Below, one piece after another: positions 1,627 to 53,039 of a DNA stretch of 64,000 nt. Below the pieces are notes generated by a model, which was not told the DNA's origin, searched no databases, and saw only the letters and a program-made list of their open reading frames with translations. Each line of letters opens with the position of its first letter. Positions within the stretch are counted from its first letter, which is position 1. Made by a program: the position numbers and the translations under genes. Origin of the DNA: Siphonodentalium dalli (Eukaryota > Mollusca > Scaphopoda > Gadilida > Siphonodentaliidae); NCBI GenBank assembly GCA_032622095.1, contig CP136067.1:136589990-136653989 (forward strand), given 5' to 3'.

Positions 1627-2087
1627 TCATGAATCAGTAATACACTTGATGAGTGTAAACAGAGAATCTGCTACAATCTGAGGCAGATGGAATGTAGTCA
1701 TGCAGTGGTCTGCTGACTTCACAAATTCCATGCACTCTGATAGAGCATGTACAGTATGTTCATCTAAACACAAGAAACAAATTCCAGTACTATCAGCCTC
1801 TATGTATAACTCTACAGCAGAGACAAAATCTGCCCTTTGTTCGACATTCACTCTAGTGTGTGTCACATCTGATGGGTGTTGTATACAAATGTCACAGCAA
1901 GAAGGTACATCATTAGACTGAGTTTCGAAATAGTGTGAAATAAACACTCGCCGGCAGTCCGTAGAGTTGCAAAACTCTTTCATCTCCTTGTCAACATGCC
2001 TCTGTCCTAAATCTGTGGCATTGTAGAACAGCTGAGCTTCTGCTGACGCCCCATCTCTGCCAGCACGTCCGACTTCCTGCACATATG
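1627..2087 (-). CDS. RecQ-like DNA helicase, terminal coding exon 3
   Basis: A 461-nt exon that starts after GATTTTAG (acceptor revcomp of 2088-2090) and ends at TGA (revcomp of 1627-1629). Joined in phase 1 it reads STLEAYVQEVGRAGRDG, an exact RecQ motif VI. The nearer TGTGCAG acceptor would break the frame. It is followed by the RecQ zinc-binding module: Cys at about 382, 387, 406/407 and 410, with the CRR and CCDIC signatures. The full model is 885+142+461 nt, 495 residues plus stop, so the protein is short: helicase core plus zinc domain, with no recognisable HRDC domain. Such short RecQ-like genes are often multicopy in invertebrate genomes. Nothing looks broken. Confidence 0.86.
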
Positions 2088-2135
2088 CTAAAATCAGAAT
2101 GAAAGCCACTGATTAAAGAAATCGTCATGTCCGTG

Positions 2136-2576
2136 TTAAAGGTACTCAATCCGATTTGATGGTCCCCATATAACCAGATTACAACAACTACATTTTTAGA
2201 AATGCACTTCAGTTATCAGAATCGATTAATTGCCCAAAAATAATGCTAACCACTGTCAACTATAGTATAAAATTGCTAGAAACATATTATTTATCAACAT
2301 GCTGTTTGACGAAATATGGCCTTATTATCAACACAAAACCTCTTGATTTTAGAGTTATCCATCTTCATCTGGAATTTGATCCCAAACCATCGGCTCATCG
2401 ACTTTTTACTGGGCCACTAATAAGTCTTGATGGTGAAAAATAATAGATTTCAAAAATCGATATCTGATAACTCAGACCTTTGATAGGTGGGTTCCTCGAC
2501 TCGAATAAAATATTGTTTACCCCGAAAGCAAATAAATAGTAATTGAGGGGCACTTAATTGGATTATGCATCTTTAA
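2136..2576 (+). mobile_element. TTAA-flanked MITE, family T1 (complete copy)
   Basis: Bounded by TTAA at both ends. The left end reads TTAAAGGTACTCAATCCGAT; the right end in reverse complement reads TTAAAGATGCATAATCCAAT, so the two are imperfect terminal inverted repeats. A second copy (37951-41345, split by a LINE) and a truncated inverted copy (28783-28926) share the sequence, including the internal GTTATCCATCTTCATC segment. No transposase is encoded. A TTAA target suggests mobilisation by a piggyBac-like enzyme (inference). Confidence 0.8.
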
Positions 2577-2599
2577 ACTGTTCTATCTCTTGTTTTTTA

Positions 2600-4880
2600 T
2601 TTTTTTGTTCAAGTCAAGTTCAAAGCCTTGCGACACCAGTTCACATATGTCCATTCGGGTTTGTAAGTTAATATATAACTTATATGATATATATAAGTTA
2701 TACATTAACTCACAAATCTGGATTGGATGGGGATATTAGTCCAGTGCATTTATGGTTTTACCCAGAACTAATTGCAACAGATTTTTTTTTTGCTGGAATT
2801 GGTACATATACCCTCCATAAACAACATACTAAAAATCGGCAAAAATCGGAAAAAGGGAAATTAGTGAATTTCGTGAAAAAAAATTGAGAAAATTTGGTCA
2901 AATCATCAATTTATGGGTTTTCATGAATGTATATAAAAAATTCAAATTCACAAGTCCTACAAATATCATGCATATTTTGTCGAACACATTTTCCTGAATC
3001 CAGAACTGGAAACCATTCCCAGATTCCTTAAGTATTTTTCGAGTTGTGTGCCTTCAAAAACGCGAGTTTACCTGATTTCGGAGCCTTAATTTCGCAGAAT
3101 GAGCCAAATGCTGTATTATATGGTTAATTATTTTTAAAACTAGAGCAAAATTAATTACTTTTACACTGTTTTAGTAATTTCCTCACCAGATAAAACACAA
3201 AATATGATTAATATGTGCATCTATGAATAAGGAGAATAAAATATTCTCAAACAAAATGTGTGTTCCATTGTATGGACTTAACCAAATTTGCCTTGACACA
3301 GAACTCGTGTGATGAAATGCCATATTTGAGGTCATGTAACTCAATAAATTAATATCCATATGCTCTGCTTTTCTCATAACATTTTGAGAATACTAGACTG
3401 AACAAATTGTGAAGGAATTTCCAAATACATTGGTGAAGAAAATAAAATTATGGTCCTATGAACTCTTAGTCTAGCCTCTTTTCCGAAAATGCAATTGTGG
3501 GACGTTTTTGTCAATTTTAAAAGGATGTTAGGCATATACAGAAAAATTAACGAAAGTTTATTGTTTAAAATTATGTGATCTGTCCTCTTAAATCATTTTT
3601 TTGTTGAGAAAATAGCATTTCAATGGCTATACCAATGAATTTCACTGGATTTCACTCATCATTGTGGAAACATACTCCAAATTTTAACGGCAGAAAAATG
3701 GGGTAGGGGAAAGCATATCAACAAAATAATGTATTAAGCAGTTTTATAATGCAACAGGAATGTACACAAACTGGAAGAAAACAACATTGTGTCTGAAATG
3801 GCTGTAATTTGGTGATAAGATTGCATTTTGTGATTTTCCCTACCCCTATACCAACGTTAAAATTTGGAGTCAGTTTCCTGAAAAATGAAAGAAATCAAGT
3901 GAAATACTATGGCATAACCAATGTAAGGCTAATTTTTTATCACTAAATTGTTGTGGGAGGAAAGTTCAAATAATTTTACACATTAAAACACCCATTGTTT
4001 TTTGTTTTTATGGCCCAAAACCTTTTAGATTGGACAAAAATGCCTCAAACTGGCATCTTTGGAAACAAGCTAAAACTAAGTATTCAAAGGGCCATAAGTT
4101 GATTTTCTTAAATAATGTCCTGTTAATACCTTTACATTTTGTTCAATCCAACATACTTAAAAGGTTATAACAAAAGCATGGCATATGGGTATTAAATTAT
4201 TGAGTTACATGACCTCAAATATTGCATTTCATCACACACGTTCAGTGTCGGAGGCAAAATTGGCCAGGTCCATACAATGGAACACACATTTTGTTTGAGA
4301 ATATAATCTTCTTCTTAATTATAGATACACATATTAATCATATTTCGTGTTTAATCTAGTGAGGAAATTACTATAACACTGAAAAATCCCTTCAGTTTGC
4401 TCTAGTGTTTTTAATAATTAATCACAAATAAGGCATTTTGGCTCATTCTTCGATATTGAGGCCCCGAAAATGGGCCGAAATCAGGTAAACTCGCGTTTTT
4501 GAAGGCACACAACTCGAAAAATACGTAATGAATCTGGGACTGGTTTTCAGTACTGGGTCAGGAAATTGAGGTCGACACAATACGCATACCATTTGTAGGA
4601 TTTGTGAATTTGATTGTTCTTATATGCATCCATGAAAATCCATAAATTGATGATTTGACCAAATTTCCACAAATTTATTTCACGAAATTCACCAATTTTC
4701 CTTTTTCCGATTTTTGCCGATTTTTAATATGTTGTTTATGGAGGGTTTGCGTACTTATTCCAGCAAAAAAAAATTCTGTTGCAATTAGTTCCGGGTGTGG
4801 CATTTTTTTCTCATAAATGCACTGGACTATATGTCAATGGCTGTGTCAAGGCTTTGAATTTGACTTACCAAACAATTTTT
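2600..4880. mobile_element. 2.3 kb foldback element with arms of about 1.1 kb
   Basis: The left arm (about 2600-3720) and right arm (about 3830-4880) are reverse complements over their full length. Anchors: CAAAGCCTTG near 2620 pairs with CAAGGCTTTG near 4848; AAATCGGCAAAAATCGG near 2834 pairs with CCGATTTTTGCCGATTTT near 4708; CTCAAACAAAATGTGTG near 3244 pairs with its complement near 4290; CCAAATTTTAACG near 3670 pairs with its complement near 3858. The core of about 110 bp has no recognisable gene. It looks like a Foldback-type or decayed TIR element. Confidence 0.85.
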
Positions 4881-4992
4881 TTTAAATAGAACATTTTAGC
4901 ACTGACGCGATAAAATGCTGTAATGGTACAAATGATTCAGACAATAAAATGTGCACAAGTAAAATATTCAGCTGTATTTGTTATGAGATTAC

Positions 4993-5134
4993 CTTCAAGA
5001 GTTGATGGAGGCCCTGCATGTACAACCTTCTTAACGTTTCTCAAATCACATCCCATTCCCAGAGCAATTGTGGAGAAGATCAATCTGATTGGAGAATTCT
5101 CCCTATCCAACACCTTCAGGATGTCATCATTAAC
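4993..5134 (-). CDS. RecQ-like DNA helicase, coding exon 2
   Basis: A 142-nt exon between a TTTTACAG acceptor and a GTAATC donor. It enters in phase 0 and leaves in phase 1. It encodes residues 296-342 with RecQ motif V: IRLIFSTIALGMGCD, then VVHAGPPSTLE (compare the family's VATVAFGMG and the P.S.E.Y stretch). The 275-bp intron 5135-5409 separates it from exon 1. Both splice sites are canonical GT-AG. Confidence 0.85.
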
Positions 5135-5409
5135 CTGTAAAATCATTCAATGTGGTCAGAGATAATAATCAAAGTACATGTCAAGTTTTATTTTATATCA
5201 ATGTAGTTTGTAGGCTGAAAATACATGCATTTAAAAATTAAATGTGGGCTAAATATTTTCTATTTTAAACAAACCTTAAAAAGAATTATTACACTTCATA
5301 ATAAAATACAATGAACTACTACATGTATTGTCCATCTCATAATGATAACTAATAGATGTATAATATCATTTATTTATTTCTGCACCATGTACATTAGTTA
5401 ACAACTTAC

Positions 5410-6294
5410 CTCTTTAGGTTTCTGTGAGTGAAACTGAACAACCCGTGGTACCATCTTATTGTCCTGGTTGCTCCAAAATCTTTGGCCGAGAATGTGCCTC
5501 GCTAAAAGAATCCCATGCTTGCACCACTGTAGTTTACTGTAGACCACAGTTAGGAGCATATTTTCTGGGTCTGCATACAGATCCATAAGCAGTGGCTTAA
5601 ACACATAGTCATATGAATCCTCTACAGGAGCTGGTGTTCTCTTTCTTACCATCAGCATTATATTATCGTTAATGGTAAATGATGACCGTATGTATATTAT
5701 GTTGTCCATCCCAAGCTGTCTGACAATTTGTAACTGAGAACTTTGACTTGCTGTTGCGGTAATGGCAAAGAAATGAATATCAGAACTGAGGTGAGCCCGA
5801 AGCTCGTTTATTGCTTTATAATCCTTTCGGAACTCGAGCCCCCACTCCAAAACACAGTGAGCCTCATCAACAATCACATATGTCCTGTCAACATTCTTTG
5901 TAATATTTCCAAGAATTGACGAGTGTTCGAGGACGTGTTCTGGATGACCAATATAGAATGTTGATGATGGGACTTGCTGGTTTGGTTGGAGACTAACTAT
6001 TTCTGTTCCAAGTTTCTGGCACTCTTGATTTATTAGACTGTTCAGTGGCACGATTATAATAACTTTGCAGGTTTTCGATTCCATTAGTCTTGTATATATT
6101 GGCAATATTTCATAGATCAATGATTTCCCATAACCAGTAGGAAGTGTCGCCATCACATCACCTTTGAGTAGAGATGACAAACATTGTAACTGTTTTGGTT
6201 TCAGGAAGTTGAAAGCTGTCTTGAATGAACAATTGTATTCTGACAGAGCCAGCTTTGACAGCAAGGATTTCTCGATAGTTTGTGATACTGCCAT
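5410..6294 (-). CDS. RecQ-like DNA helicase, coding exon 1
   Basis: First coding exon of a superfamily 2 helicase, an ATP-driven 3'-5' DNA unwinding enzyme expected in the nucleus. It starts with ATG (revcomp of 6292-6294) and gives residues 1-295. Visible motifs in RecQ order: Walker A LPTGYGKS (51-58), DEAH box VDEAHC followed by the RecQ-type EWG..FR.DY stretch (142-159), motif III ITATAS (178-183), motif IV LLTVVYSK (247-254), and a final VVQFHS like the FHS of motif IVa. The exon ends at a GTAAGT donor (intron starts at 5409) in phase 0. Walker A has TGYGKS where most RecQ proteins have TGGGKS; the catalytic Lys and DEAH are intact. A non-coding upstream exon cannot be excluded. Confidence 0.87.
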
Positions 6295-7830
6295 TCTGAA
6301 AATTTATTAAAAGAGAAATTACATAAAATTCTCCATGAGTTACATATCAATCATGAACCAGGGTTCATCAGTGGGTTGTATATAGCATGTGTTCTTAATG
6401 CATTTAAAACAACATTTTGTTTTGAACTAATATTGACTAGGCAAGTGCATATACCAAGTCTGATAATAAGCAACCTGATATTTGAAAATTGAGTTTCCCA
6501 GTGGGTGAATTTCGTCGCACGTTATCTCAAACAAAAATTAAACTGAAAAAGAGAAAATTGTATATAATTATTAAATTTTGCCTCTGAACCTAATATGATA
6601 TCTGATCTGGGTAGGGCCAGATATTCTTACCACAATAAATATGTGGGAATAATGAAAGCCGTCAGGACTCATTATGGTGTATTTTAGACTAGCTTGCCGC
6701 GAATGAAGTTTTATGTTACTAGAACTATCTATGTTCTTAAAATTATTGGCCCTATCCAAGGCATCATATACAAGGACAGACAATATTAGTATTTATTATA
6801 AATTTAATGTAAATTAATTTATATCGCAATGTATCTGCAGTGGCTCTTTTTTATACTATACAGATTATATCCTGCGGCCATTACAACTAAATTAATATTA
6901 TAATAATTTCTCATAATAACCATGCGCTCTAAAGTTTATAGTTTAGAACACCAGCGGTTTCCAGTCAGATTCGAACTGACAATCCCCTCAGCATAAACTG
7001 AGGTGCACTCACCAATGTGCTGTAGAAACTGATATAAAGCTGGCATTGAAAAACTAAAAACACTAGAGCTCCGGGTGGAGACACATTCATGGGCAGGGAC
7101 GCTGATATGCATTGGGAAATATGTTTTTTCTTCAATTTTCGTGTCTATATAGGCCCACTATATGGGAAACAGGCCACCAGTAACCCTTAATTCTTATGTA
7201 AATGTATTTTAAATTATATACATGTATGTAAGGTTAATAGTGAACAAATATGAGTTAATTTCAGTGTAGGAAAAAGATTGCATCACTCATTTTATCCAGC
7301 CCCAACACAGCCACCCCCCTGTATTGTGCCTGGGGAAAATATGCTTTTCAAACTAACCATATAATTGTGGCGTTTTGAGTCCTGTAGAGGTGTTTGTCGG
7401 GTTGGTGTAGAAAATTCCTAGTTTAGCCCAAACAGACCCATTATCAGTGTTTGAGTCTGTGCCACACATGAATATAAACAAAAAATTCCTAGTAATCAGG
7501 TGAAAATTATGACAAATCAAACAACCAGCATGTAAAGTATAGTTTACAAATGGTTTGTGACATCTTATTGTGTGATAGGGTTTGAAATATACGATATGGG
7601 CCAATAAATTTGAACACGGCAGCGTAAATACTTAAAATAGACATACACGGTATTGCGCGAAATCAGGCAATGGCTGCACTTGATCGCACGATTTTGTATA
7701 ATTTTATTGTCGCTACAAAGCGGAGAATGGCGCAAATCATATAAATGTATATTTTTGCACAATGCGATGACAATTTCGGCAACAATTAGTCATAAAAGTA
7801 GTAATTAAATCAGTATTTACAGTTGGCACG
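6295..7830. other. Upstream flank of the RecQ-like gene
   Basis: AT-rich sequence without a supported gene apart from the tRNA-like fold at 6956-7029. It probably holds the RecQ promoter, but I see no TATA box or other element that I would defend. Confidence 0.4.
6956..7029 (-). tRNA. tRNA-like cloverleaf, probably a tRNA pseudogene or tRNA-derived relic
   Basis: The minus strand folds as a 74-nt cloverleaf: acceptor GTTTCTA with TGGAAAC (7 bp with G-T pairs), D stem GCAC/GTGC with GG in the loop, anticodon stem CTCAG/CTGAG, T stem GTCAG/CTGAC with a canonical TTCGAAT loop. The anticodon loop is 6 nt instead of 7, so no anticodon can be assigned and function is doubtful. Confidence 0.4.
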
Positions 7831-7849
7831 TTTTTGTGATCGCCGCCGA

Positions 7850-7980
7850 CCACGTGTATGGTTTGTTATTGTTTACAATTTCAGCCTGTACCTGACTCTA
7901 TCGGTAGATTGAGTCAGGGTACGAGACTAGGCTGGCCGTCCATCTTACGTTTTCATAGGATACAAATTGATCGGATTTTA
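7850..7980 (+). promoter_or_regulatory. Possible promoter and non-coding first exon ending at a strong donor
   Basis: This is the only GC-richer patch for several kb. It holds GCCGCCGACC, a CACGTG E-box at about 7850, and a perfect-consensus donor TTTTAG|GTAAGTG with the intron starting at 7981. A small hairpin TGACTC...GAGTCA lies at about 7891-7918. No ATG-initiated frame of note precedes the donor, so it would be a 5' UTR or lncRNA exon. Inferred from signals only. Confidence 0.25.
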
Positions 7981-8840
7981 GGTAAGTGAAACTAATTAGT
8001 CATCAATTGAAGTGATTTATCATTATGAACAGACTGTTACTAGTAAAATACTTAATCGAGCTACAATTAAAAATGCACGACTTATCCTGTTTTATTCAAA
8101 TGAAATTTGATAGTAAATCGGCCTAATTTTGTTTCCGTTAAATATTTCAGAAAATGGAATCCGTCATTGATAAATGAACATTTTTTTGGTCAAAATAGTA
8201 ACTTCTGACGGACTATGATTATATGGCATTTATGAATCATATATAAAGGTAGCCCTACACAATATTCCCAACTGTGTTCCAAACTGCAATAACGATTTTT
8301 AATGAATTATAAATTGGCCTAAATTTGATGCTTCATAAAAGGAAAAACTGTCCGGGAATGGCTATTTTCGTCTGCAAAATCAAATTCTGCCATAAATGCA
8401 GTGTATTGTCGGTCGACATTAATATGACAATAGTTGGAATATTAAAAGGTCCCAGTTATTAAAAATATACATGTAGCTTATGGGCAATTCCACGACGGAG
8501 AATGAAAGTTGTGAAAAAATTAAATCTTGAATATTGACTAAACAATTTGAAAATCTGATAGTTATGGTATTCAAGTTATTGAAAACAGTTTTTCTCTCTC
8601 TCATATTCATCATTTTAGTGCTGAAAACTTATGCCATTGTTAACCCACATGTGCTACTGAAAGTTTTGCCAAAAGTGGCTTGTAAGTAATTGAGCAAATA
8701 GTAACAATTATTTAAGATTGGCTTATAGTATTTCAGTATTTAAATAGGTCGATGCACGCTATAACACATTTTGGGGTTTATATTTCTGTGACTGATGTCC
8801 ATTTGGGGAAAAATATTTTTCAGAAATCTACATACTATAT

Positions 8841-11620
8841 GTAATGTCAGTCACGAAAATACTACCTTTTTTGGTATAAAACAATATTGCATGACAATAT
8901 AACAACCATATCTTAGAGACGCTCAATATACCTGAGCCTCAATGTCTGTGTTCAAAATAAGCACCATTGGATATCTAAGTTGACCGCTAGCAAGAGTTGA
9001 AATATGTAATGTCAGTCACACGTAATGTCAGTCACGGCATGTAATGTCAGTCACGTTTTGCAATTTGTTCCTATTCTGGTAGATGACATAAAAATATTGT
9101 AAGAAAACATACTACATGTTTTAATTGGATTTGTAAACATATGCAGTTCCATATAAGTGCATCTACTCTCTGTTCTCATGATGTACATGTACCGGTATGT
9201 GAGCATTGAATGCACGGTATGTGTAGCGGTATTTCATATAAGAAATGTTTCAGAACATGGATGGCGAGTGAATAAGTCGTACACGTCGCACTTATCTCCT
9301 GAGATGTGTTTTTGAGATTTTAACATATGAAGTTTCTGTTATGGTCAGTGCTGGGAAGTTCTGGAAATGGCCTTCACGTGAAGACAAGCTTATATATCAA
9401 CGGGAAGACATATGCAAGAAACTGAATGGCCCAGTTGTTGTTAATTCACGTGGGAATTTTGATTTCCCAGCAAATAGTTAAATGCATGGTATATATATGA
9501 TGACACAGTGCAGTTCTTTGTTCAATATTATTTAGTGCGAATGGATGTACTGTGATATTACAGAGCTCTGATTCTTAATTGGCAGTACTATTTATTCAGT
9601 GATTGGTTTAATGTTCTTATCTCCGAATAAACAAACTATCAATAAAATTCAATATCATGATCATTGGTACACAATTGTGAATATAATTCACCATTGGTCT
9701 ATTCTAAAAAGAAGTATGCAAAGTCTGAGCTGCTAACCGGTATATATTTGGTGTCAATAGGCAACCGTGTGTCTTTTAACGCCCCAATATCTATCACAGT
9801 AATTACATATACTAAAGTTCTTCTTATCACAATAGGGATGTTTATTGAGAAACTTCTAACTTCTCCCTTCAAGCATTCATAAACTTAAATTAGCTATGGA
9901 TGTGGTGGAAAATATGCGACAAATTGTTTGACGTGTAAAGTTAGAAGTTTTTCAATCTAAACTTCCCTAATATTTCCAGTAAAATCCTGCTGTTTGCATG
10001 AAAAAAAAACTACTACAAATGGGGCTGCAACGATTCATCATGATTTCAATGCATCGCAATTTAGTCAGTGCATCGCATCGTAAATGTCTGAAGTGATAAA
10101 TCACGATTTATGAAAGGCACACTTTTGAATAAAAACTCATCAAATGCTTTCTAACAACACTCAAGAATTCAGTTTCTCAACATTTATTTCCAAGAGTGAC
10201 ATCAATTTCATCAATGAGAAAGAGAAAGTTAGTAGGCAATTTACCCTTCCTAATTGCATGAATCAGATTGGTTACCATTTGGGCAATGAGCAACTTGATC
10301 CCTACAATGAGCCTGAACAAGGCTGAATTAATTCATAGATATACATGTAGTGACAACTAGCAATTGTGCATCGTGGTTCACACCCCATCGAAGCATAAAC
10401 ATTGGGATGTGCATTGCAACGTGAACTTCCGCATTGTTACAGCCCAAACTACAAGTGGGCTGAAAATTATCAGCTAGGTTATATATTCAGAAATTCATGT
10501 TCCCAGGTATAATAAACAGTGTGCTCAGACTTTTGTTGTGGTAATGAGTTGTTCAACTTCTACGAGAAAGTCCCAGTATTATGTTATCATATTTCTCGGG
10601 AGGCTGCCATTCAATGACGATCCTTATCCACTTATTTATTTATTCAACTTGTATAAAATCAAAATATATCTCACTAAATACTGGTAAACAAACTGTACCA
10701 GGGAAATTTCAACACAGATTTGATGTGAAATATCCAACTGAAATGTCATATGCATGAAATATTTGTTGAAAATGTTTGCCAAAGTATAAGACAACTACGC
10801 AAATCACCTCCCATTTTCCTGGTCTCCGAACGCTATTGTCTGAAAAACTTGTGCAAAAGGTAATTGAGAATTTGTTCATAGGCTAATGTTTTGCACAAAT
10901 TTAATCAAATAATATCAGTCACAGACATTAGTCTATTCATAATATTTTTTTGAAATTCCAACTATAATAATTGAAAAAGGTGTTCATATTAAATTATTTG
11001 AATGTAAAACAACTTAAATTTGAAATCTAGTTACGATGTATCTTGGATAATTTTGTGTAATGTCAGTCACGCTTACATTAGCCAATGTCATGTTCATGTG
11101 CTGTATATGGTAATAAAATATATTAAATGCATTTAAACCCCATAAAATATGACTTTAGGGCACTAATTACTCATTTGGATCAGAAACTGTTGGAAATAGT
11201 TGATATATTTCATAGCGTAATGTCAGTCACGAAATTAGTGTAATGTCAGTCACGCATAATTTGGACAACAACAAATATTTAATTATAGTTCTAAGCTTAA
11301 ATTTTGCTTTTACATTATCTTGAAATATCTACCATGAAAAATTAACAAAGAAAAACATATGAGTTTCTGTAAATTTAAGACAAATTTAATTTGAAAACAA
11401 GTTGGCAATGTGCCTTGATATTTTCATGTAATGTCAGTCACGCTAACATTGAACGATGCCATTTTATCATCGCTTGACTAAATTCAGAATAATGCACATT
11501 TTTGGGTGCACCCTGGCACAAGCCAACATCACACATAGAAATAAGATTATATATTTATACATGTTGCTGGTATCACCACAATGAATCTGGAAAAAGTTCT
11601 TTGAATGTAATGTCAGTCAC
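8841..11620 (+). repeat. Nine dispersed same-strand copies of GTAATGTCAGTCAC
   Basis: Exact 14-mers start at 8841, 9006, 9022, 9041, 11057, 11217, 11240, 11428 and 11607; seven of the nine continue with G. They come as clusters (three between 9006 and 9055) and singles, at spacings of 16, 19, 23 and hundreds of bp, so this is not a simple tandem array. Two larger segments (about 10950-11110 and 11330-11470) are diverged duplicates in which the 14-mer stayed intact. A degenerate version is at about 10913-10932. Confidence 0.85.
10021..10446. mobile_element. hAT-like MITE
   Basis: The left end GGGGCTGCAACGATTCATC and the right end (reverse complement GGGCTGTAACAATGCGG) form imperfect terminal inverted repeats that start with GGGCTGYAACRAT, typical of hAT-derived MITEs. 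ACTACAAA/ACTACAAG flank it as a possible 8-bp target duplication. There is no transposase. Confidence 0.6.
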
Positions 11621-11758
11621 ATGGAATTGCCCTTATAAGGAAATTGTCAGTTATGATCAGTTATACCGGTACTTCATACCATTATTCTAACAAATGTCAA
11701 CCTGATAGAATTCCCACAATCTCTTTAATATTGTCATGCCATGGCCAATTTAACACTA

Positions 11759-12102
11759 AGTGAACGTTCAGATTACCACCATACAATCGTCGTAGGAAGT
11801 AACCGCTCAACTGTGCATGCTCACCTCAAAATCGTAGGTAAAAAATAATATCATGCACTGTTTTATTTAAAAGCGAAATTGTGGCGTATCCTTGGTTATC
11901 CCCATTTGCGACGTAATCACTAATCAGTCATGTGTATGTAAAAATTGTGGCCTGAAGGATCGCATGATAGTCAATCACATGCTTTACAAAAAAACTGTGA
12001 TTTCATCATGTACGACATCGTAATCATGTGAACAAACTATCCACGATCTCGTCGATCCCGGTTCCTCCGCTTAAGATTGTATCTTTCATCTGTACGTTCA
12101 CT
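11759..12102. mobile_element. MITE with 15-bp AGTGAACG terminal repeats
   Basis: AGTGAACGTTCAGAT at 11759-11773 is the inverted match of ATCTGTACGTTCACT at 12088-12102 with one mismatch. Complementarity continues imperfectly inward (TACAATC...GGAACC). About 344 bp long. Confidence 0.7.
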
Positions 12103-12117
12103 GAGTGAACATTCATG

Positions 12118-12450
12118 ATTCATATGACTACGATTCAATTGTAAGTGGACAGATTCCCATCTTGGGTAATAACCGATAGTTGGACTGCGCATGCTCACGA
12201 CATGATCACGAGTTATATCAATGCAGAATTGCTAAATTGTGACGTATCCTTGGTTACCTCCACTTGGTGAAATTTGCGTGTACGTAAAAATTGTACAAAG
12301 TAAATGGAAATATCATAGGATAGTTAATCACGTGGTTAACCACCGATATTAAATATACTCATCTGCGATGACATCGTAACAAACTATCCATGATTTTGTC
12401 AGGCCCGATTCCTCCACTTACGATTGAATTATGGTCTTCTGACATCTGAA
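12118..12450. mobile_element. Second, diverged copy of the 11759-12102 MITE, in tandem
   Basis: It shares GTGACGTATCCTTGGTTA, GCGCATGCTCAC-like and ACAAACTATCCATGAT blocks in the same order as the preceding element. Its own ends pair through ATTCAATTGTAAGTGGA and TCCACTTACGATTGAAT. Confidence 0.6.
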
Positions 12451-13107
12451 TCGCCGAAAATGCTAATATTGTTGGAAGAATGAACTTTACACTTGTTTTT
12501 TGAATATGTTTGCAAATTATGAAAATACATGCATCCATATCACATATATATGTACATGTATTTTTTCTTCAATTACAGAAATACCAGATTCATTAGCCAT
12601 GGTGGATGCGGCATCATGCCCTCTCATCTTCAACATATGAAGATTGATTTCGCCCATGATTAGTCTTAAAGTCGCCGTCGCGAAGTTCATATTTTACCAA
12701 TTTCCCCGCTTATTAGACCAACAGAGTCGTTCTGAGAACGAAATTAATCGTCCCAAGATTAGCCGCTATCGATTCGCATTCCAGGAAACCCCACTGGCAT
12801 GCGCACAGCAGTAAACGCGAACTGCAGATTGGGTGTAATTTATTTTTGACCCGTGACGTCATTAATCACCTTGCGGCATTCTGTTGACATTGTGTTATCG
12901 AAATCGGTTTCTGCGTGGTTTTGTTTTAGTTCACAAACATGTTTCGTTTTCGTTGGAAATCGTGAATTCGGAATGTATTTATGTGTGTAATAAAATATTG
13001 AATAATACGACATGAATTATTCGCGTGGCCAAAAAAATCCGGAGTAAATTCGTACATATTTGGACGAAGTTCGTGTGTCACTGTGACTGTCAGAATAGGA
13101 CCACAGC
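12451..13107. other. Unassigned intergenic stretch
   Basis: I see no gene, repeat end or RNA fold that I can support here. Confidence 0.3.
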
Positions 13108-13166
13108 AGATCATGCCATGAATCTCTACTCCCGTGCCGCTGGAGTAGGTATTCGTGGCATGATCT
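13108..13166. ncRNA. Pre-miRNA-shaped hairpin
   Basis: Two 25-nt arms (13108-13132 and 13142-13166) enclose a 9-nt loop. Read as plus-strand RNA, 24 of 25 positions pair, counting two G-U wobbles; one C-U mismatch remains. Size and loop fit a microRNA precursor, but a small palindromic repeat would look the same. I recognise no known miRNA seed. Confidence 0.3.
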
Positions 13167-13499
13167 ACATGTAGGTCCACGGGAACTTCGAAATTTATTA
13201 ACTTTCAACCTATTGTTGATATGAAATGCATGGGATACGTGACCGCTTTCGCAGATTTCTGCTTTCAAGTCCCACAAGAAGAGTACTAATTACGTTTCTG
13301 GCTGAACTATCAGAAGGGGTTCTTGGGTGGCTATGCTGTCTACGTATCTGCATGTATCATCTTTGTGAAAATGATTTTAATATGATCAAACAGTGAAATA
13401 CAGATCTATACAGTATACCATGGCTTCTTCCATTCGTTGAGTTGAAAAAGTTAATACTGGAGTGTTATTACGCTGAATAATATAATATCTATGTTCAGG

Positions 13500-14380
13500 G
13501 TAAACACACCAGCCCCTCCCAAAATGGGCCGCATCCTCTGGATTGTATGGGGTTCAAGTTTTTTTTTCCAATTTTCCTCTGACTCATTCTTTTTTATTAT
13601 AATATACAAAAATGTGACAACAATAACGACCATAAAAAACGTTTGCTTTAAAAATAGTGAACCAAAATCATTATTTTATCATTTTATGCAGATTAGTTCC
13701 ATACATCACCTTCTCAGGAGAAGTCTATTTCTTGCCATTTCATGACTATAAAGCAAAATAATCAATAAAACCCCCAAGATGATTTTTTGTCATGTAGGTC
13801 CTGGACTTCTTCCCTTCCTAGCCTGGATATCTTACCCCCACCCAAACCCTGACTCAAACAACATTTTCTCGGAAGAAGTTAATTTCTCATTGTTTCGTGA
13901 CTATATAAAGCAAAATAAGCAATAAAACCATGATTTTTCTCAAGTAGGCGCTGGTGTTGGGGGGGGGGGGGGGGGGGGGGGGCTGCATCATGTTCTGGAA
14001 TCTTCGTTTCATGACTTTATAAAGCAAAATAAGCAATGAAACCATGAGACAATTTTTTGTCATGTAGGTACTGGGTTGTGGGTAGCTATCCAGACCTGGA
14101 CATTTGAAAGAATGAAATTAAATAAAAACAAATTTAAATCTCAAGTCATTTTTCTCGCCATTTCAGGATCAAATAATCAATTGTGTGATTAAAAAAATAT
14201 GTCGCTTGGAAAAAAATATATTTTAATAAAAAAAAAAAAAGGGAATTATAAAAAAAAAACATTGTTCTGGCAATTTCAGGATCAAACTATGAAAAGTGGG
14301 GGGAAATTTGTCACTTGAAAATAATTTTTTTTTAAATAAAAACAAAGTTAAATATCAAACAATTTGGCCATTCCAGAGTC
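13500..14380. repeat. Imperfect repeat array with poly(G), forward orientation
   Basis: Units of roughly 150-200 bp contain TGACTATATAAAGCAAAATAAGCAATAAAACC and a TGTCATGTAGG segment. One unit carries a 24-base G run (13959-13982). Decayed, non-coding. Confidence 0.6.
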
Positions 14381-15014
14381 AAACGTTATCAAATGAATGA
14401 AATTATTTTCAGTCATATATGGGAGATGAAGATTAGGGAGATACATTGTAACAAACTATTAAGATTTCATTCATTTATTCATGCATTTCTCCAGCTCGGG
14501 CAAACGAAAGCCCCTGTAATTTCCACCATCATTTGGGAAAGCATACTGAAATTACTGATGCCATTCACAACACACGATGGAAGAGGTCTGCAGTTATGCA
14601 AAACATGGTAGCCATAGCACCACCGAATAAACTGTCTATGCGATATGCCTGTATTTGTTGTGCAGAGGTCCATTAAACGGATGACTATACTGTTGTTGGT
14701 ATCCTAACCATGCAACTTCAAGTAGCCATGGGTCCAGGCACACACTCCTGAAGGGGACAGTCTCTGTGATACACTTGAAGTGTCCTTCTTCCTATGAAAT
14801 CGCTTTTGTCACTTCCTTTAGCTTGGTCTCAACTTTTTCAATCTCATGGCAACATCTGCACTCACAGGTACATTGTAGTCTCCATCACATACATAGGTGC
14901 ATGAACACCTGAAATGACAAGGGAAATACATTTATTATGGAACAACTCAGAGTTAACATTCAATTCCTCAATTTTGTTGATGCAAACTTTGACAAATTTG
15001 TAACAAACTCGACA

Positions 15015-25067: not shown

Positions 25068-25563
25068 TCACAAAGGGTTTCTAATGGGGTATCGAGATGC
25101 TTCAGCGACGGTAGCTGGTAATATATTGGTGAGGTAGGAAGGGACATGATGAGTAATTATTTTGTTCCAGGTGTGCATTTTATCGAGGTTTCGTCTTTCG
25201 CCAAGTGGAGGCCACCCGAGTTCAAATAGGACTTTTTCATCTGATACCGAACGCGTGAGACCACTTACTATTCTACCAGCGTCGGTATATAGGCGGTCGA
25301 GTTTCCGGAGGAGGCAATCCCAAACAACATCTCCGTACTCCGTTATAGGAAGTACGTAAGTTTTGAACATTATCTCGAGGGTTTGTCTATTTATAAGAAA
25401 TTTTATTCTCCTCAGTTGTGACAGTCTGGTTGACACTCGGCTACACATTTCATTCATATGGGTGTCCCAATGAAGGTTCGATTGTATAGATACTCCAAGA
25501 TGTTTATGACAGTCAACTTGCTCTATTTCGTTATAATCAAGTTCGAGATCCAAAGAATCTGTC
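25068..25563 (-). pseudogene. Non-LTR retrotransposon reverse transcriptase, C-terminal fragment
   Basis: The minus-strand frame of about 161 residues contains the RT thumb region (CHKHLGVSIQSNLHWDTH near the start, then LRRIKFLINRQTLEIMFKTY and VLPITEYGDVVWD). The K.LGV.......W..H...... and Y....EYG..VWD patterns are characteristic of CR1/Jockey-like elements. It lacks the upstream catalytic YxDD region. It is cut at its 5' side (about 25563) by another LINE tail with TTATC repeats, so it is a truncated relic. Confidence 0.85.
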
Positions 25564-25910
25564 AGATAAGATAAGATAAGATAAGTTTATTGGCACTAGA
25601 ATCATGAAACATTGTAACAGAGTAAGAATATGTATAATATGTATGTGTTATATGAGGTTGCAAATGGAATCTAGATGTGACTGTAGAGTATAAATGGTCG
25701 AACAGATCGAGTGATCTTCTCCTTCACCCCACGGTTTCACTATGAGTGACAAATTACGGATCTAAAAATTTACGGATCTAGTATACGTAAATATTGTATA
25801 TATGGTCGAACAGATCGAGTGATCTTCTCCTTCACCCCACGGTTTCACTATGAGTAAAAAATTACAGATCTAAAAATTTACGGATCTAGTATACGTAAAT
25901 ATTGTATATA
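25564..25910 (-). mobile_element. LINE 3' tail ending in a (TTATC)n microsatellite
   Basis: On the minus strand the segment ends TAGTGCCAATAAACTTATC followed by further TTATC units, the usual 3' end of CR1-like elements. Upstream lies a direct duplication of about 107 bp that contains CGAACAGATCGAGTGATC and GTTTCACTATGAGT twice. Confidence 0.65.
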
Positions 25911-25988
25911 TGCCGACAAAAACGCAATGATGATTGGGGAAATAAAGGTCCCAATGCCATTAGACTCATAACACTGAAGTATGGTCCG

Positions 25989-26455
25989 TTAAAGTCCCAC
26001 TTAATTTCCGAAACCCCAGATACTTTTGTACAAAATATATGCCATATTATATACCATTTGAAAGAGGAAGCTCCATCACATTGTATTATCAACTTATCCG
26101 GTGTAATAAACTGTGAACATGTTGTTTTTGTTGACTTCCCAACATGTTTTTGTCATCTAGATTGTAGAAAAGGTGTATTATTTTCAATGGATGGAGAATA
26201 ACTTGATATCTTAAAGATAGAGTTATTCCACTTCCATTGAAAATTCATCTTTAGTTTAAATTTGTTGGGGGGGAATCTTTATATGATTTCAGCTGTTTTC
26301 TATTTCTTTATGGGCATCTTCCGAGACACAGATATTTAAAATGGTAATGAATTATAGTAATTTAATAATATTATATGGCATAGATTGTTATTAAAACCGT
26401 TTATCAAGTCACTATAAAAAAATATCGGTGACTCGAAAATTAAGAGGGCCTTTAA
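25989..26455. mobile_element. TTAA-flanked MITE, family T3 (in copy A)
   Basis: The left end TTAAAGTCCCACTTAATTTC and the right end GAAAATTAAGAGGGCCTTTAA are imperfect inverted repeats. Its TATACCATTTGAAAGAGGAA block recurs at 42604-43053. The same element is present in copy B. Confidence 0.75.
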
Positions 26456-26803
26456 ATAATTCCCTCCACTGTCGTAGATTTACAGTAATTTTTAACTCTT
26501 TCAGTGCCAGGGGCCGATCTCATCGACCCTAAGTGGCCCAGTACAAGTCGATGAGAAGACCAAATAGCAGATGAAGATGGATAACTCTAAAATCAAGTGG
26601 CATTTTGTGTCAGATATTGACAAACCGTCAAAATTTCATTGTACAAAAGGTTGACAAATAACAGGTTTTGCAGGGGGCCGGAAAAAACTGCAGACACAGG
26701 GTGGAAAAAACAGTTTTCTTCGGTTTGGGTACACCCCCCCCCCCCCCCCCCCCCCCCAAAGCAAAATCTGCAGTTTTTTTTCACTGACCATTTGCCCCCC
26801 CCC

Positions 26804-28050
26804 CTCTATTTCGTTATAATCAAGTTCGAGATCCAAAGAATCTGTCAGATAAGATAAGATAAGATAAGTTTATTGGCACTAGAATCATGAAACATTGTAA
26901 CAGAGTAAGAATATGTATAATATGTATATGTGTTATATGAGGTTGCAAATGGAATCTAGATGTGACTGTAGAGTATAAATGGTCGAACAGATCGAGTGAT
27001 CTTCTCCTTCACCCCACGGTTTCACTATGAGTGAAAAATTACGGATCTAAAAATTTACGGATCTAGTATACGTAAATATTGTATATATGGTCGAACAGAT
27101 CGAGTGATCTTCTCCTTCACCCCACGGTTTCACTATGAGTAAAAAATTACGGATCTAAAAATTTACGGATCTAGTATACGTAAATATTGCATATATGCCG
27201 ACAAAAACGCAATGATGATTGGGGAAATAAAGGTCCCAATGCCATTAGACTCATAACACTGAAGTATGGTCCGTTAAAGTCCCACTTAATTTCCGAAACC
27301 CCAGATACTTTTGTACAAAATATATGCCATATTATATACCATTTGAAAGAGGAAGCTCCATCACATTGTATTATCAACTTATCCGGTGTAATAAACTGTG
27401 AACATGTTGTTTTTGTTGACTTCCCAACATGTTTTTGTCATCTAGATTGTAGAAAAGGTGTATTATTTTCAATGGATGGAGAATAACTTGATATCTTAAA
27501 GATAGAGTTATTCCACTTCCATTGAAAATTCATCTTTAGTTTAAATTTGTTGGGGGGGAATCTTTATATGATTTCAGCTGTTTTCTATTTCTTTATGGGC
27601 ATCTTCCGAGACACAGATATTTAAAATGGTAATGAATTATAGTAATTTAATAATATTATATGGCATAGATTGTTATTAAAACCGTTTATCAAGTCACTAT
27701 AAAAAAATATCGGTGACTCGAAAATTAAGAGGGCCTTTAAATAATTCCCTCCACTGTCGTAGATTTACAGTAATTTTTAACTCTTTCAGTGCCAGGGGCC
27801 GATCTCATCGACCCTAAGTGGCCCAGTACAAGTCGATGAGAAGACCAAATAGCAGATGAAGATGGATAACTCTAAAATCAAGTGGCATTTTGTGTCAGAT
27901 ATTGACAAACCGTCAAAATTTCATTGTACAAAAGGTTGACAAATAACAGGTTTTGCAGGGGGCCGGAAAAAACTGTTTTCTTCGGTTTGGGTACACCCCC
28001 CCCCCCCCAAAGCAAAATCTGCAGTTTTTTTTCACTGACCATTTGCCCCC
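26804..28050. repeat. 1283-bp tandem duplication, copy B
   Basis: It matches copy A at a constant offset of 1283 bp, then passes into family P copy 2 at the C runs near 28000-28069. The junction lies in a C run, which suggests unequal recombination or slippage in poly(C), or an assembly error there. Confidence 0.92.
27272..27738. mobile_element. TTAA-flanked MITE, family T3 (in copy B)
   Basis: Duplicate of 25989-26455, carried along by the tandem duplication and not an independent insertion. Confidence 0.75.
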
Positions 28051-28775
28051 CCCCCCCCCCCCCCCCCCCAGAAAAATCAAATCTACCCCAACAACAACTC
28101 GGTTTGACCGGAAACCGAAAAAAACACCGGAGCATACAATTCACGAGAAGGTGCTTGGTAACTTAGTTTAGATTATTATGACTAAAATGGTCATTGTCTA
28201 CCAGTAGAAAGCAGATTTGTACCTCGTGATGTCATGACATGTACAAACATGTATATTGGTGATCGCACCGCTTTGTATGCACTTTAAAAAATGACAACTA
28301 GTCATTACCTCGACTTTGAAAAAGATGCAAATGAGATGAGTGAGATACCAGCATATAACTGTTTTCTGATACCATTGGAGGAGAAATTGTTTAATACATG
28401 GGATAGTTCTGCAGTAAAAATTTGCCAGATAAGCGATCGCAGGGTAGAATTCTGCATTCGACTGGTAGACACTGACATAGTCGGCATTATTAATAGGGTT
28501 AATGGGGTCAATATCACATGTAAACCAAGACAGTGGTTATCCAAAATTGTTTTAGGTGGATTGTACTACTCATGTATATATGATTTGGATATTAAGGTTA
28601 ATCCATATTCTATAAAATGAGAGAAAATTGAAGTTGTGAGTCTGAAAATACATATTTGGAAAACAATTACATGCAAATTTTTCCGACAACCCCCCCCCCC
28701 CCCTAAATGAATAAGGAAAAAAAAACCCCACCCCCGGTACGTTGTGTCCCGCAGTTTTTTTCCACCCCCCCCCCC
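27967..28775 (+). repeat. Poly(C)-rich repeat, family P, copy 2
   Basis: It matches 17725-18585, including the frame of 109 codons at 28291-28620, and has a 24-base C run at 28046-28069. Confidence 0.8.
28291..28620 (+). CDS. Repeat-borne 109-residue open frame, second copy
   Basis: Same frame as 18066-18398, with one codon deleted after FEK and replacements such as C to G and K to N. Unknown function; possibly not expressed. Confidence 0.22.
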   Translation: MTTSHYLDFEKDANEMSEIPAYNCFLIPLEEKLFNTWDSSAVKICQISDRRVEFCIRLVDTDIVGIINRVNGVNITCKPRQWLSKIVLGGLYYSCIYDLDIKVNPYSIK

Positions 28776-50140: not shown

Positions 50141-50795
50141 GTAGATTAATCTAATATATATTTTGGGACTTCTGTTTGTCTGTCTGTCTGTTAGCTATGG
50201 CCGGGAAAACGGCTGGACCGATTGAACTCAAACTTCCAATCTAAGGTTAAAAACTCACAGGCAGTGTTTACCACCGTTTTGGAGAAGCTCAGAGCACCCA
50301 TTCTCCACTCTCAGTCACAAAAATGACCGCCATTGGCACGGTGGTTTTAATCGCGTTGATAGTTAAAGAGTGTTCGTATCCACAGTGTCGTTGATAAAGA
50401 GCGTATGCGTGTAATGTGATTCTTACGTCTGGGTCCACACGTGAGCGTGACTGTATCCAGACATGAGCGTGTTGTGTGATTCTTACGCACTTAGGGCTTC
50501 CTAGGAACGGGGGAGATTTTCATCGGGTCAGTTTTTTTCGCCCGAGGTGATCTTCACATTCAAACGGGTACCCACAAATGATATATATGTGTGTGTCCTT
50601 TATAGACTCGAACCGATTGAGCTGAAACTTGCTACCCGCGGGAAGTGTCATGGACGGATTCAATTGTGACCCCGACCTGACATTGACCTTGAAAATGATC
50701 AATTCGAGGTCAAATCGGGTAAAACTGGCGGATTTCGACGAAATTTTACACCTAGGTGCAGCATACGTGTCTCGGAAGCTGTTGCAATTGCTTTT

Positions 50796-51830
50796 TCGAA
50801 CAAAGCCATGAGACGAACCACGCCAGTTGTGATTCTTATGTCTGTCTTCGTACTTAGGGGTTCCAAGGAACGGGGGAGATTTTCATCGGGTAAGTTTTTC
50901 CGCCTGAGGTGATCTTCACCTTGAAACGGGTACCCACAAACGTACCTCTTTTAGGGACGGGTACCATCACGGGACGGGTACCATCATTTCTCTTGATTAA
51001 AAAGGCAGAATTAACTCAAATTAAATTAAAAAATTAACGGATTTCGACGAAATTTGATACCTGGGGATACTTTTGTCGGGGGAGTGTTTTGGACGGGTCA
51101 AACCGTTACCCCGACCTGATCTTGACCTTCAAAATTGTCAATTCAAGGTCAAAGCCCGGACGAAGTCGGGTCACCTGCTAGTCTAATATATATTTTGGGA
51201 CTTCTGTCTGTTTGTCTGTTAGCTATGGCCGGGAAACGGCTGGACCGATTGAGCTCAAACTTCCAATCTAAGGTTAAAAATTCACGAGCAGTGTTTACCG
51301 CCGTTTTGGAGAAGTTCCGATCACCCCTTCTCCACTCCCAGTCACCAAAATGACCGTCCTTGGCACTGTGGGGTTAATCGCGTTGATAGTTAAAGAGCGT
51401 TCGTATCCGCAGTGTCGTTGATAAAGAGCATATGCGTGTAGTGTGATTCTTATGTCTGGGCCAGACGTGAGTGTGTCTGTACCCAGACATGAGCGTGTTG
51501 TGTGATTCTTATGTCTGTCTTCGTACTTAGGGGTTCCAAGGAACGGGGGAGATCTTCATCGGGTAAGTTTTTCCGCCCGAGGTTATCTTCACATTGAAAC
51601 GGGTACACACAAACATACCTCTTTTAGGGACGGGTATCATCACGGGACGGGTACCATCATTTCTCTTGATTAAAAAGGCAGAATTAACTCAAAATAAATT
51701 AAAAAATTAACGCATTTCGACGAAATTTGATACCTAGGGATACTTTTGTCGCGGGGGGGGGGGGGGTGGTGTTTTCGACGGGTCAAATCGTGACCCCGAC
51801 CTGGCCTTGACCTTCAAAATGGTAAACTTT
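50796..51830 (+). repeat. 1035-bp tandem duplication, copy 1
   Basis: TCGAACAAAGCCATGAGACG at 50796 recurs at 51831 with a constant offset of 1035 bp. Copies differ at few positions, including the length of a G run near 51755-51768. Confidence 0.9.
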
Positions 51831-52860
51831 TCGAACAAAGCCATGAGACGAACCACGCCAGTTGTGATTCTTATGTCTGTCTTCGTACTTAGGGGTTCCA
51901 AGGAACGGGGGAGATTTTCATCGGGTAAGTTTTTCCGCCTGAGGTGATCTTCACCTTGAAACGGGTACCCACAAACGTACCTCTTTTGGGGACGGGTACC
52001 ATCACGGGACGGGTACCATCATTTCTCTTGATTAAAAAGGCAGAATTAACTCAAATTAAATAAAAAAATTAACGGATTTCGACGAAATTTGATACCTGGG
52101 GATACTTTTGTCGGGGGAGTGTTTTGGACGGGTCAAACCGTTACCCCGACCTGATCTTGACCTTCAAAATTGTCAATTCAAGGTCAAAGCCCGGACGACG
52201 TCGGGTCACCTGCTAGTCTAATATATATTTTGGGACTTCTGTCTGTTTGTCTGTTAGCTATGGCCGGGAAACGGCTGGACCGATTGAGCTCAAACTTCCA
52301 ATCTAAGGTTAAAAATTCACGAGCAGTGTTTACCGCCGTTTTGGAGAAGTTCCGATCACCCCTTCTCCACTCCCAGTCACCAAAATGACCGTCCTTGGCA
52401 CTGTGGGGTTAATCGCGTTGATAGTTAAAGAGCGTTCGTATCCGCAGTGTCGTTGATAAAGAGCATATGCGTGTAGTGTGATTCTTATGTCTGGGCCAGA
52501 CGTGAGTGTGTCTGTATCCAGACATGAGCGTGTTGTGTGATTCTTATGTCTGTCTTCGTACTTAGGGGTTCCAAGGAACGGGGGAGATCTTCATCGGGTA
52601 AGTTTTTCCGCCCGAGGTTATCTTCACATTGAAACGGGTACACACAAACATACCTCTTTTAGGGACGGGTATCATCACGGGACGGGTACCATCATTTCTC
52701 TTGATTAAAAAGGCAGAATTAACTCAAAATAAATTAAAAAATTAACGCATTTCGACGAAATTTGATACCTAGGGATACTTTTGTCGCGGGGGGGGGGGGT
52801 GGTGTTTTCGACGGGTCAAATCGTGACCCCGACCTGGCCTTGACCTTCAAAATGGTAAAT
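51831..52860 (+). repeat. 1035-bp tandem duplication, copy 2
   Basis: It follows copy 1 to the AAAATGGTAAA near 52860, where copy 1 joins the next unit (AAACTTTTCGAAC) and this copy continues into single-copy sequence (AAATTCAGGGTC). Confidence 0.9.
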
Positions 52861-53039
52861 TCAGGGTCAAATCGGGTAAAACGGACGGATTTCGACGAAA
52901 TTTTATACCTAGAGGTACTTTTGTCCGAGGAGTGTTTTGGACGGGTCAAATCGTTACCCCGACCTGACCTTGACCTTCAAAATGGTCAATTCAAGGTCAA
53001 AGTCTGGACGAAGTCGGGTCACCTGCTAGTCTATTTATC

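Follow-up and report, generated by a model that had tools for sequence, protein, structure and literature searches.

Maize Ac/Ds elements, which belong to the hAT group, carry 11-bp terminal repeats together with AAACGG repeats that are bound by the transposase, and some non-autonomous Ac/Ds forms have little else in common with the autonomous element (PMC3260210). In Hermes, another hAT transposon, one end bears 17 short sites and the other 14, and their arrangement mostly differs between the ends (PMC10368747). Subterminal arrays of this type are usually assumed to be necessary, yet they can also inhibit, as pointed out in the piggyBat paper (PMC11707139). Finally, Kolobok elements have 5'-RR..YY-3' termini and a standard TTAA duplication, and the solo terminal repeats of KolobokP are associated mainly with duplications of 3-4 or 4-5 bp (Mob DNA 2022, PMC9587614); the word "subterminal" is absent from the main text of that paper.

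The locus described here lies in a 64-kb window, the whole stretch of DNA that was analysed, and in our opinion probably corresponds to a non-autonomous class II transposon (positions 8482-11632) in which a 14-mer, GTAATGTCAGTCAC, extended to the 17-bp consensus RYGTAATGTCAGTCACR, would act as the subterminal recognition site. As in the published description of Ac/Ds, 11-bp terminal repeats are combined with many subterminal copies of one short word, but AAACGG differs from the 14-mer in both length and sequence, and the Ac/Ds subterminal regions extend over about 200 bp, against about 576 bp here. The locus also resembles Hermes, as described, in that each end carries a short site several times over; the Hermes sites, however, are 4-bp words (AAGT, AAGC) concentrated at the tips, the first two on the left being quasi-palindromic, whereas the present sites measure 14-17 bp and share one orientation. 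Target duplications of hAT elements are 8 bp long and the duplication found here is 4 bp. Likeness to the Kolobok elements, as reported, resides in the GG..CC termini, which conform to RR..YY, and in a duplication of 4 bp. The duplicated sequence is nonetheless TTAT instead of the standard TTAA, and neither a Kolobok transposase nor long terminal direct repeats were found in the element. Assignment to Kolobok was set aside because TTAT is not TTAA. The literature searched, judged by titles and the beginnings of abstracts, contained no element with these ends; searches of paper texts for the motif, its complement and the terminal repeat gave nothing pertinent by title apart from rice small RNAs (PMC3661559). 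We regard the case as a further example of an already known kind, untidy in detail.

An exact search of the window found GTAATGTCAGTCAC nine times, always on the + strand and always within 8841-11620, with zero matches on the - strand and none in 100 shuffles of the sequence; the nine same-strand copies in 2.8 kb reported by the first-pass annotation are therefore real. The probability of a single orientation for nine copies is 0.004 (two-sided binomial). When up to three mismatches were allowed, 17 matches were obtained in the whole window, compared with a shuffle mean of 6.2 and a largest shuffle count of 13; among the eight inexact matches, just two fall within the cluster, at 10909 (+) and 10918 (-), and these overlap each other. 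The exact copies form a group of four (8841-9054) and a group of five (11057-11620) separated by about 2 kb, a gap that holds zero exact copies and the single degenerate one at 10909. Ranked on a single strand, GTAATGTCAGTCAC is the top non-simple 14-mer of the window, its own one-base shifts reaching 7 and the next words after them 6. With the strands pooled, 13 other 14-mers outnumber it at 11-12 occurrences each, and these are overlapping words of at least one palindromic repeat. Words such as TCGCATATATAAGA and GAGAATGCATTGGC, with 11-12 occurrences over both strands, represent a dispersed palindromic repeat family in the whole window.

Alignment of the nine copies delimits the motif sharply. 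All 14 positions are invariant (9/9), so that not one of 9 x 14 = 126 bases has changed if the degenerate copy at 10909 is left out. The neighbouring positions are two-letter in all nine copies: R at -2 (six A, three G), Y at -1 (seven T, two C) and R at +1 (seven G, two A). Beyond -2 and +1, isolated columns peak at 7/9. The two-letter variation at the edges of the 17-bp consensus could have arisen by decay of a CpG on either side (CG to TG, CG to CA). The CpG observed/expected ratio is 0.57 in the element and 0.83 in the window. Other repeated 14-mers among the 25 listed, shifts of GTAATGTCAGTCAC aside, also repeat in their flanks, as duplicated units would, whereas the flanks of GTAATGTCAGTCAC do not. 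The nine invariant cores, their two-letter neighbours and their mostly dissimilar flanks are consistent with a conserved binding site or a retained core, as had been suggested at first. Within 8841-11620, four pairs of motif copies lie 179-188 bp from each other, which is close to a nucleosome repeat length.

Table 1. Features of the putative element and its borders (positions in the 64-kb window)
Feature	Position	Strand	Basis
TTAT, left copy of putative 4-bp target-site duplication	8478..8481		sequence, inverted-pair search, simulation
Putative non-autonomous DNA transposon, 3151 bp	8482..11632		terminal repeats, direct repeat, no Pfam family
Left terminal inverted repeat GGGCAATTCCA	8482..8492	+	inverted-pair search
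14-mer copy 1, left group	8841..8854	+	exact match
14-mer copy 2, left group	9006..9019	+	exact match
14-mer copy 3, left group	9022..9035	+	exact match
14-mer copy 4, left group	9041..9054	+	exact match
Inverted-repeat element, arms of about 45 columns (TAGGGATGTTT...), motif-free centre	9833..9969		inverted-repeat alignment
Weaker inverted-repeat element, GGGCTGYAACRAT ends	10022..10445		local alignment score only 18, without clean target duplication
Degenerate 14-mer copy ATAATATCAGTCAC, 2 mismatches	10909..10922	+	mismatch search
Diverged duplicate segment A, contains copy 5	10944..11079	+	self-comparison, realignment
14-mer copy 5, right group	11057..11070	+	exact match
14-mer copy 6, right group	11217..11230	+	exact match
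14-mer copy 7, right group	11240..11253	+	exact match
Diverged duplicate segment B, contains copy 8	11314..11450	+	self-comparison, realignment
14-mer copy 8, right group	11428..11441	+	exact match
14-mer copy 9, right group, 1 bp inside right terminal repeat	11607..11620	+	exact match
Right terminal inverted repeat TGGAATTGCCC	11622..11632	-	exact reverse complement of GGGCAATTCCA, 11/11 bp
TTAT, right copy of putative target-site duplication	11633..11636		sequence, inverted-pair search, simulation

The cluster is likely, though not proven, to be framed by terminal repeats (Table 1). Comparison of the 1500 bases that precede the first copy with the 1500 bases that follow the last yielded, among exact inverted pairs of at least 9 bp, a sole pair accompanied by any direct repeat of 2-12 bp, and this is the 11-bp pair flanked by TTAT. 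The motif copies are all confined to within 576 bp of either end of the framed element: the first left copy begins 359 bp inside the left end, the innermost copies are found at nearly the same depth at the two ends (559 bp on the left, 562 bp on the right), and copy 9 stops 1 bp before the right repeat. In first-order simulations, a pair of at least 11 bp with a duplication of at least 4 bp was encountered in 22 of 2000 cases when the arms could lie anywhere in the flanking 1500 + 1500 bases (wide test), and in 0 of 2000 when the left arm had to lie within 400 bp and the right arm within 30 bp (narrow test), limits that were set post hoc, after the pair had been seen. With no duplication required, an 11-bp pair appeared in 1413 of 2000 wide and 16 of 2000 narrow simulations. 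Elsewhere in the window, the real sequence gave such a result in 4 of 533 overlapping placements of the wide test, all owing to one AT-rich pair, and in 121 of 7387 placements of the narrow test without duplication. Pairs with a duplication and a spacing of 200-6000 bp numbered 4 in the whole window, against 0-2 in each of 10 simulations. The frame is graded as likely and not as proven because 11-bp pairs are common on their own and because the narrow limits were picked after the pair was seen. Taken alone, the AT-rich 4-mer TTAT is weak as a target-site duplication, and the ends could alternatively be drawn as an imperfect repeat of 12 columns flanked by a TA duplication. No second copy of the element was found in the 64-kb window.

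The content of the element is in keeping with its designation as non-autonomous. No Pfam family was detected at E<=0.01 in the six frames of 6301-15002, stops being read as X, a search that is blind to a transposase unlike any Pfam model or split by many introns. The longest stop-to-stop frame within 8482-11632 has 73 codons, and by Pfam scan and frame length no transposase of its own was recognised. The motif-free centre appears to be filled in part by one or two other inverted-repeat insertions: the element at 9833-9969 is probably a nested MITE, and the weaker one at 10022-10445 is possibly a second nested insertion.

How could such an element work? A transposase, or a partner DNA-binding protein supplied by an autonomous relative, would bind the four left and five right copies of the motif, and the bound protein would join the two ends of the element. 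By analogy with known systems, the DNA-cutting transposase would work at the terminal repeats, with the subterminal words boosting affinity and aiding end pairing. Selection for mobility in the parent lineage would have prevented the sites from diverging until the element inserted here fairly recently; the copies would thus be identical because the parent lineage needed them for mobility and because this copy is young enough to have kept all of them. We infer both that the whole element moved together and that a protein binds its motif; the identity and domain of that protein, like the timing, are postulated in the same sense.

The orientation of the sites strains this mechanism. Since all nine copies share one orientation, they face inward at the left end and outward at the right. 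Arrays at the two ends of a transposon often mirror each other or mix orientations, and a simple symmetrical synapse does not predict a one-way arrangement. Either the ends pair asymmetrically, or the motif is used in another step, such as expression, RNA or host control.

A first, unlikely alternative is that the locus derives from a tandem array, now degenerate, whose unit measured about 180 bp and in which the 14-mer would be the retained core, comparable to a box for a satellite-protein-type factor, the terminal repeats having arisen by chance. Four motif distances fall in the 179-188 bp range (8841-9022, 11057-11240, 11240-11428 and 11428-11607), a regularity equalled in 127 of 5000 random placements, and a 371-bp, two-unit duplication is visible in the right group. 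We nevertheless read little into these spacings because the right-hand ones are tied to that duplication and are not independent of it. Moreover, the only tandem array reported by TRF within the cluster consists of 2.9 copies of 19 bp (9004-9055), and apart from it no head-to-tail copies of a unit were recovered.

The duplication itself was correctly perceived by the first-pass annotation, which had noted two diverged segments with an intact 14-mer. Segments A and B share 73% identity at an offset of 371 bp; after realignment, 101 of 138 columns are identical, made up of all 14 columns of the 14-mer and 87 of the 124 others. Their longest identical run, TGTAATGTCAGTCACGCT, is 18 bases long and includes the motif, the next longest being 9. 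The strength of this observation is modest, given that 14 intact positions would be expected by chance in 0.7-1.3% of cases at 70-73% identity. Flanking similarity was further assessed in 64 comparisons of 150-base stretches, each tested with 500 simulations, the two partners being no closer than 150 bases and the motif masks unable to match. Five rows were reached by at most 10 of 500 simulations. The sole strong pair is that of the duplicates, 11057/11428 (0/500), which argues against an array; the remaining four rows correspond to two short AT-rich stretches resembling the surroundings of copy 5. One of these two, which would suit an array, is found downstream of copies 4 and 5, where a weak match of 32 columns occupies almost colinear positions (39 and 34 bases in) and was reached by 10 of 500 simulations. 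Because of these weak similarities to the surroundings of copy 5, some copies of the left and right groups may share an origin. With the motif masked, the left and right 580 bp shared no more 8- to 10-mers than expected by chance, in direct or inverted comparison; this counts against the transposon reading, as does the 359-bp distance between the left end and its first copy.

Quite unlikely, in our view, is a host cluster of nine sites for a single sequence-specific factor, forming an enhancer or silencer in an intron or between genes. The sharp edges of the motif and the integrity of its core within the diverged duplicates would suit such a cluster, and the reverse complement of the motif, GTGACTGACATTAC, contains TGACTGACA, which we take to be near the PBX/MEIS-type site TGATTGACAG. 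However, sites for ordinary factors vary, and identity in 9/9 copies over 14 bp is unusual for them; the region 6301-15002 is devoid of Pfam-recognised coding sequence; and a host cluster leaves both the terminal repeats and TTAT unexplained. As far as sequence can tell, terminal inverted repeats and a 4-bp direct repeat point to a mobile element in preference to a host regulatory site. These two readings could also be combined: an array of 17-bp RYGTAATGTCAGTCACR sites, all identical, would have come in with a mobile element and would now be kept intact by the host as a regulatory or RNA-binding platform, its surroundings having drifted and its polarity being functional. We consider this scenario distinctly improbable.

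The least credible possibility, to which we grant very little weight, is that a transcript crossing the locus exposes nine targets for a small RNA or an RNA-binding protein. The location of all nine copies on one strand would agree with it, as would the donor-like sequence AG|GTAAGT at 7980-7987, which had been signalled at the outset and is indeed present upstream, with its GT at 7982-7983, as a candidate donor by sequence. Rice MIR2284 products carry an 11-base complement of the motif, UGACUGACAUU (PMC3661559), but they are given little weight because they are plant RNAs and have no match past 11 bases on the 3' side. Against an RNA-level function, folding of six segments covering all nine copies revealed no structure beyond that of shuffles in any of the six (z-scores -0.83 to 1.39), and Rfam returned zero matches in the window at gathering scores. 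A coding repeat was rejected, as the nine positions are spread over all three frames, and no Pfam domain accompanies them. Of the interpretations proposed by the first-pass annotation, the binding site and the retained core can hence be kept and the RNA element of a long transcript finds no support, while the frame around the cluster had been missed.

Relatives of the element were sought in IMG/VR (viral) and GTDB (bacterial and archaeal). No IMG/VR entry contained two closely spaced copies of the motif, and none matched the right end, i.e., the motif core with the terminal repeat. The 16-mer TGTAATGTCAGTCACG was recovered in 5 IMG/VR and 17 GTDB stretches, and the left end, GGGCAATTCCACGACGG, in three IMG/VR stretches, one of which has the 14-mer at two mismatches while the other two lack it. 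Both sets were taken as chance matches, those of TGTAATGTCAGTCACG being single copies (at most two mismatches) with GGGCAATTCCA absent in the DNA examined. Neither collection provided support for the transposon reading.

If the transposon reading is correct, the locus would reveal a transposon family marked by a long and exactly kept subterminal site, with 14 invariant bases in nine out of nine copies. The GGGCAATTCCA ends together with the 14-mer would then offer a direct handle for finding the autonomous partner in the genome, and models of end pairing would face a small puzzle in the one-way orientation of the sites. The mobile-element reading also makes a conserved RNA element a weaker lead.

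Several other features of the window deserve mention. An MGAT4 gene, a split RecQ-type helicase, a reverse transcriptase and many repeats suggest that the DNA is eukaryotic. A DUF6589 frame (1-1023, +; E 1.3e-19) lies tail to tail with a RecQ-type helicase (1630-6303, -), which is split over distant frames, with a DEAD domain in 5401-6303 and a RecQ zinc-binding domain in 1630-2112. RecQ has been described in KolobokH, from fungi only in that account, and on the complementary strand of a red-alga Kolobok (PMC9587614). The DUF6589/RecQ pair may represent an autonomous mobile element, conceivably even a relative of the one at 8482-11632. Compared with solved structures, the DUF6589 frame gave weak matches, the best to a nuclear receptor (E 0.0011), and DUF6589 is named nowhere in the literature searched. 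Within the span of the helicase frames, a 2.1-kb stretch (2737-4829) matches its own reverse complement at 78%, as a large fold-back element. Just beyond the right end of the putative transposon, 11873-12429 holds two diverged direct copies that lie about 350 bp from each other. At 25521-28055, two direct copies of 1.29 kb stand in tandem with 97% identity, and each has a 108-bp tandem repeat inside it. Complex nested repeats cover 50147-53033; among them are a 1034-bp duplication (99.4% identity) and several 14-mers present in six copies.
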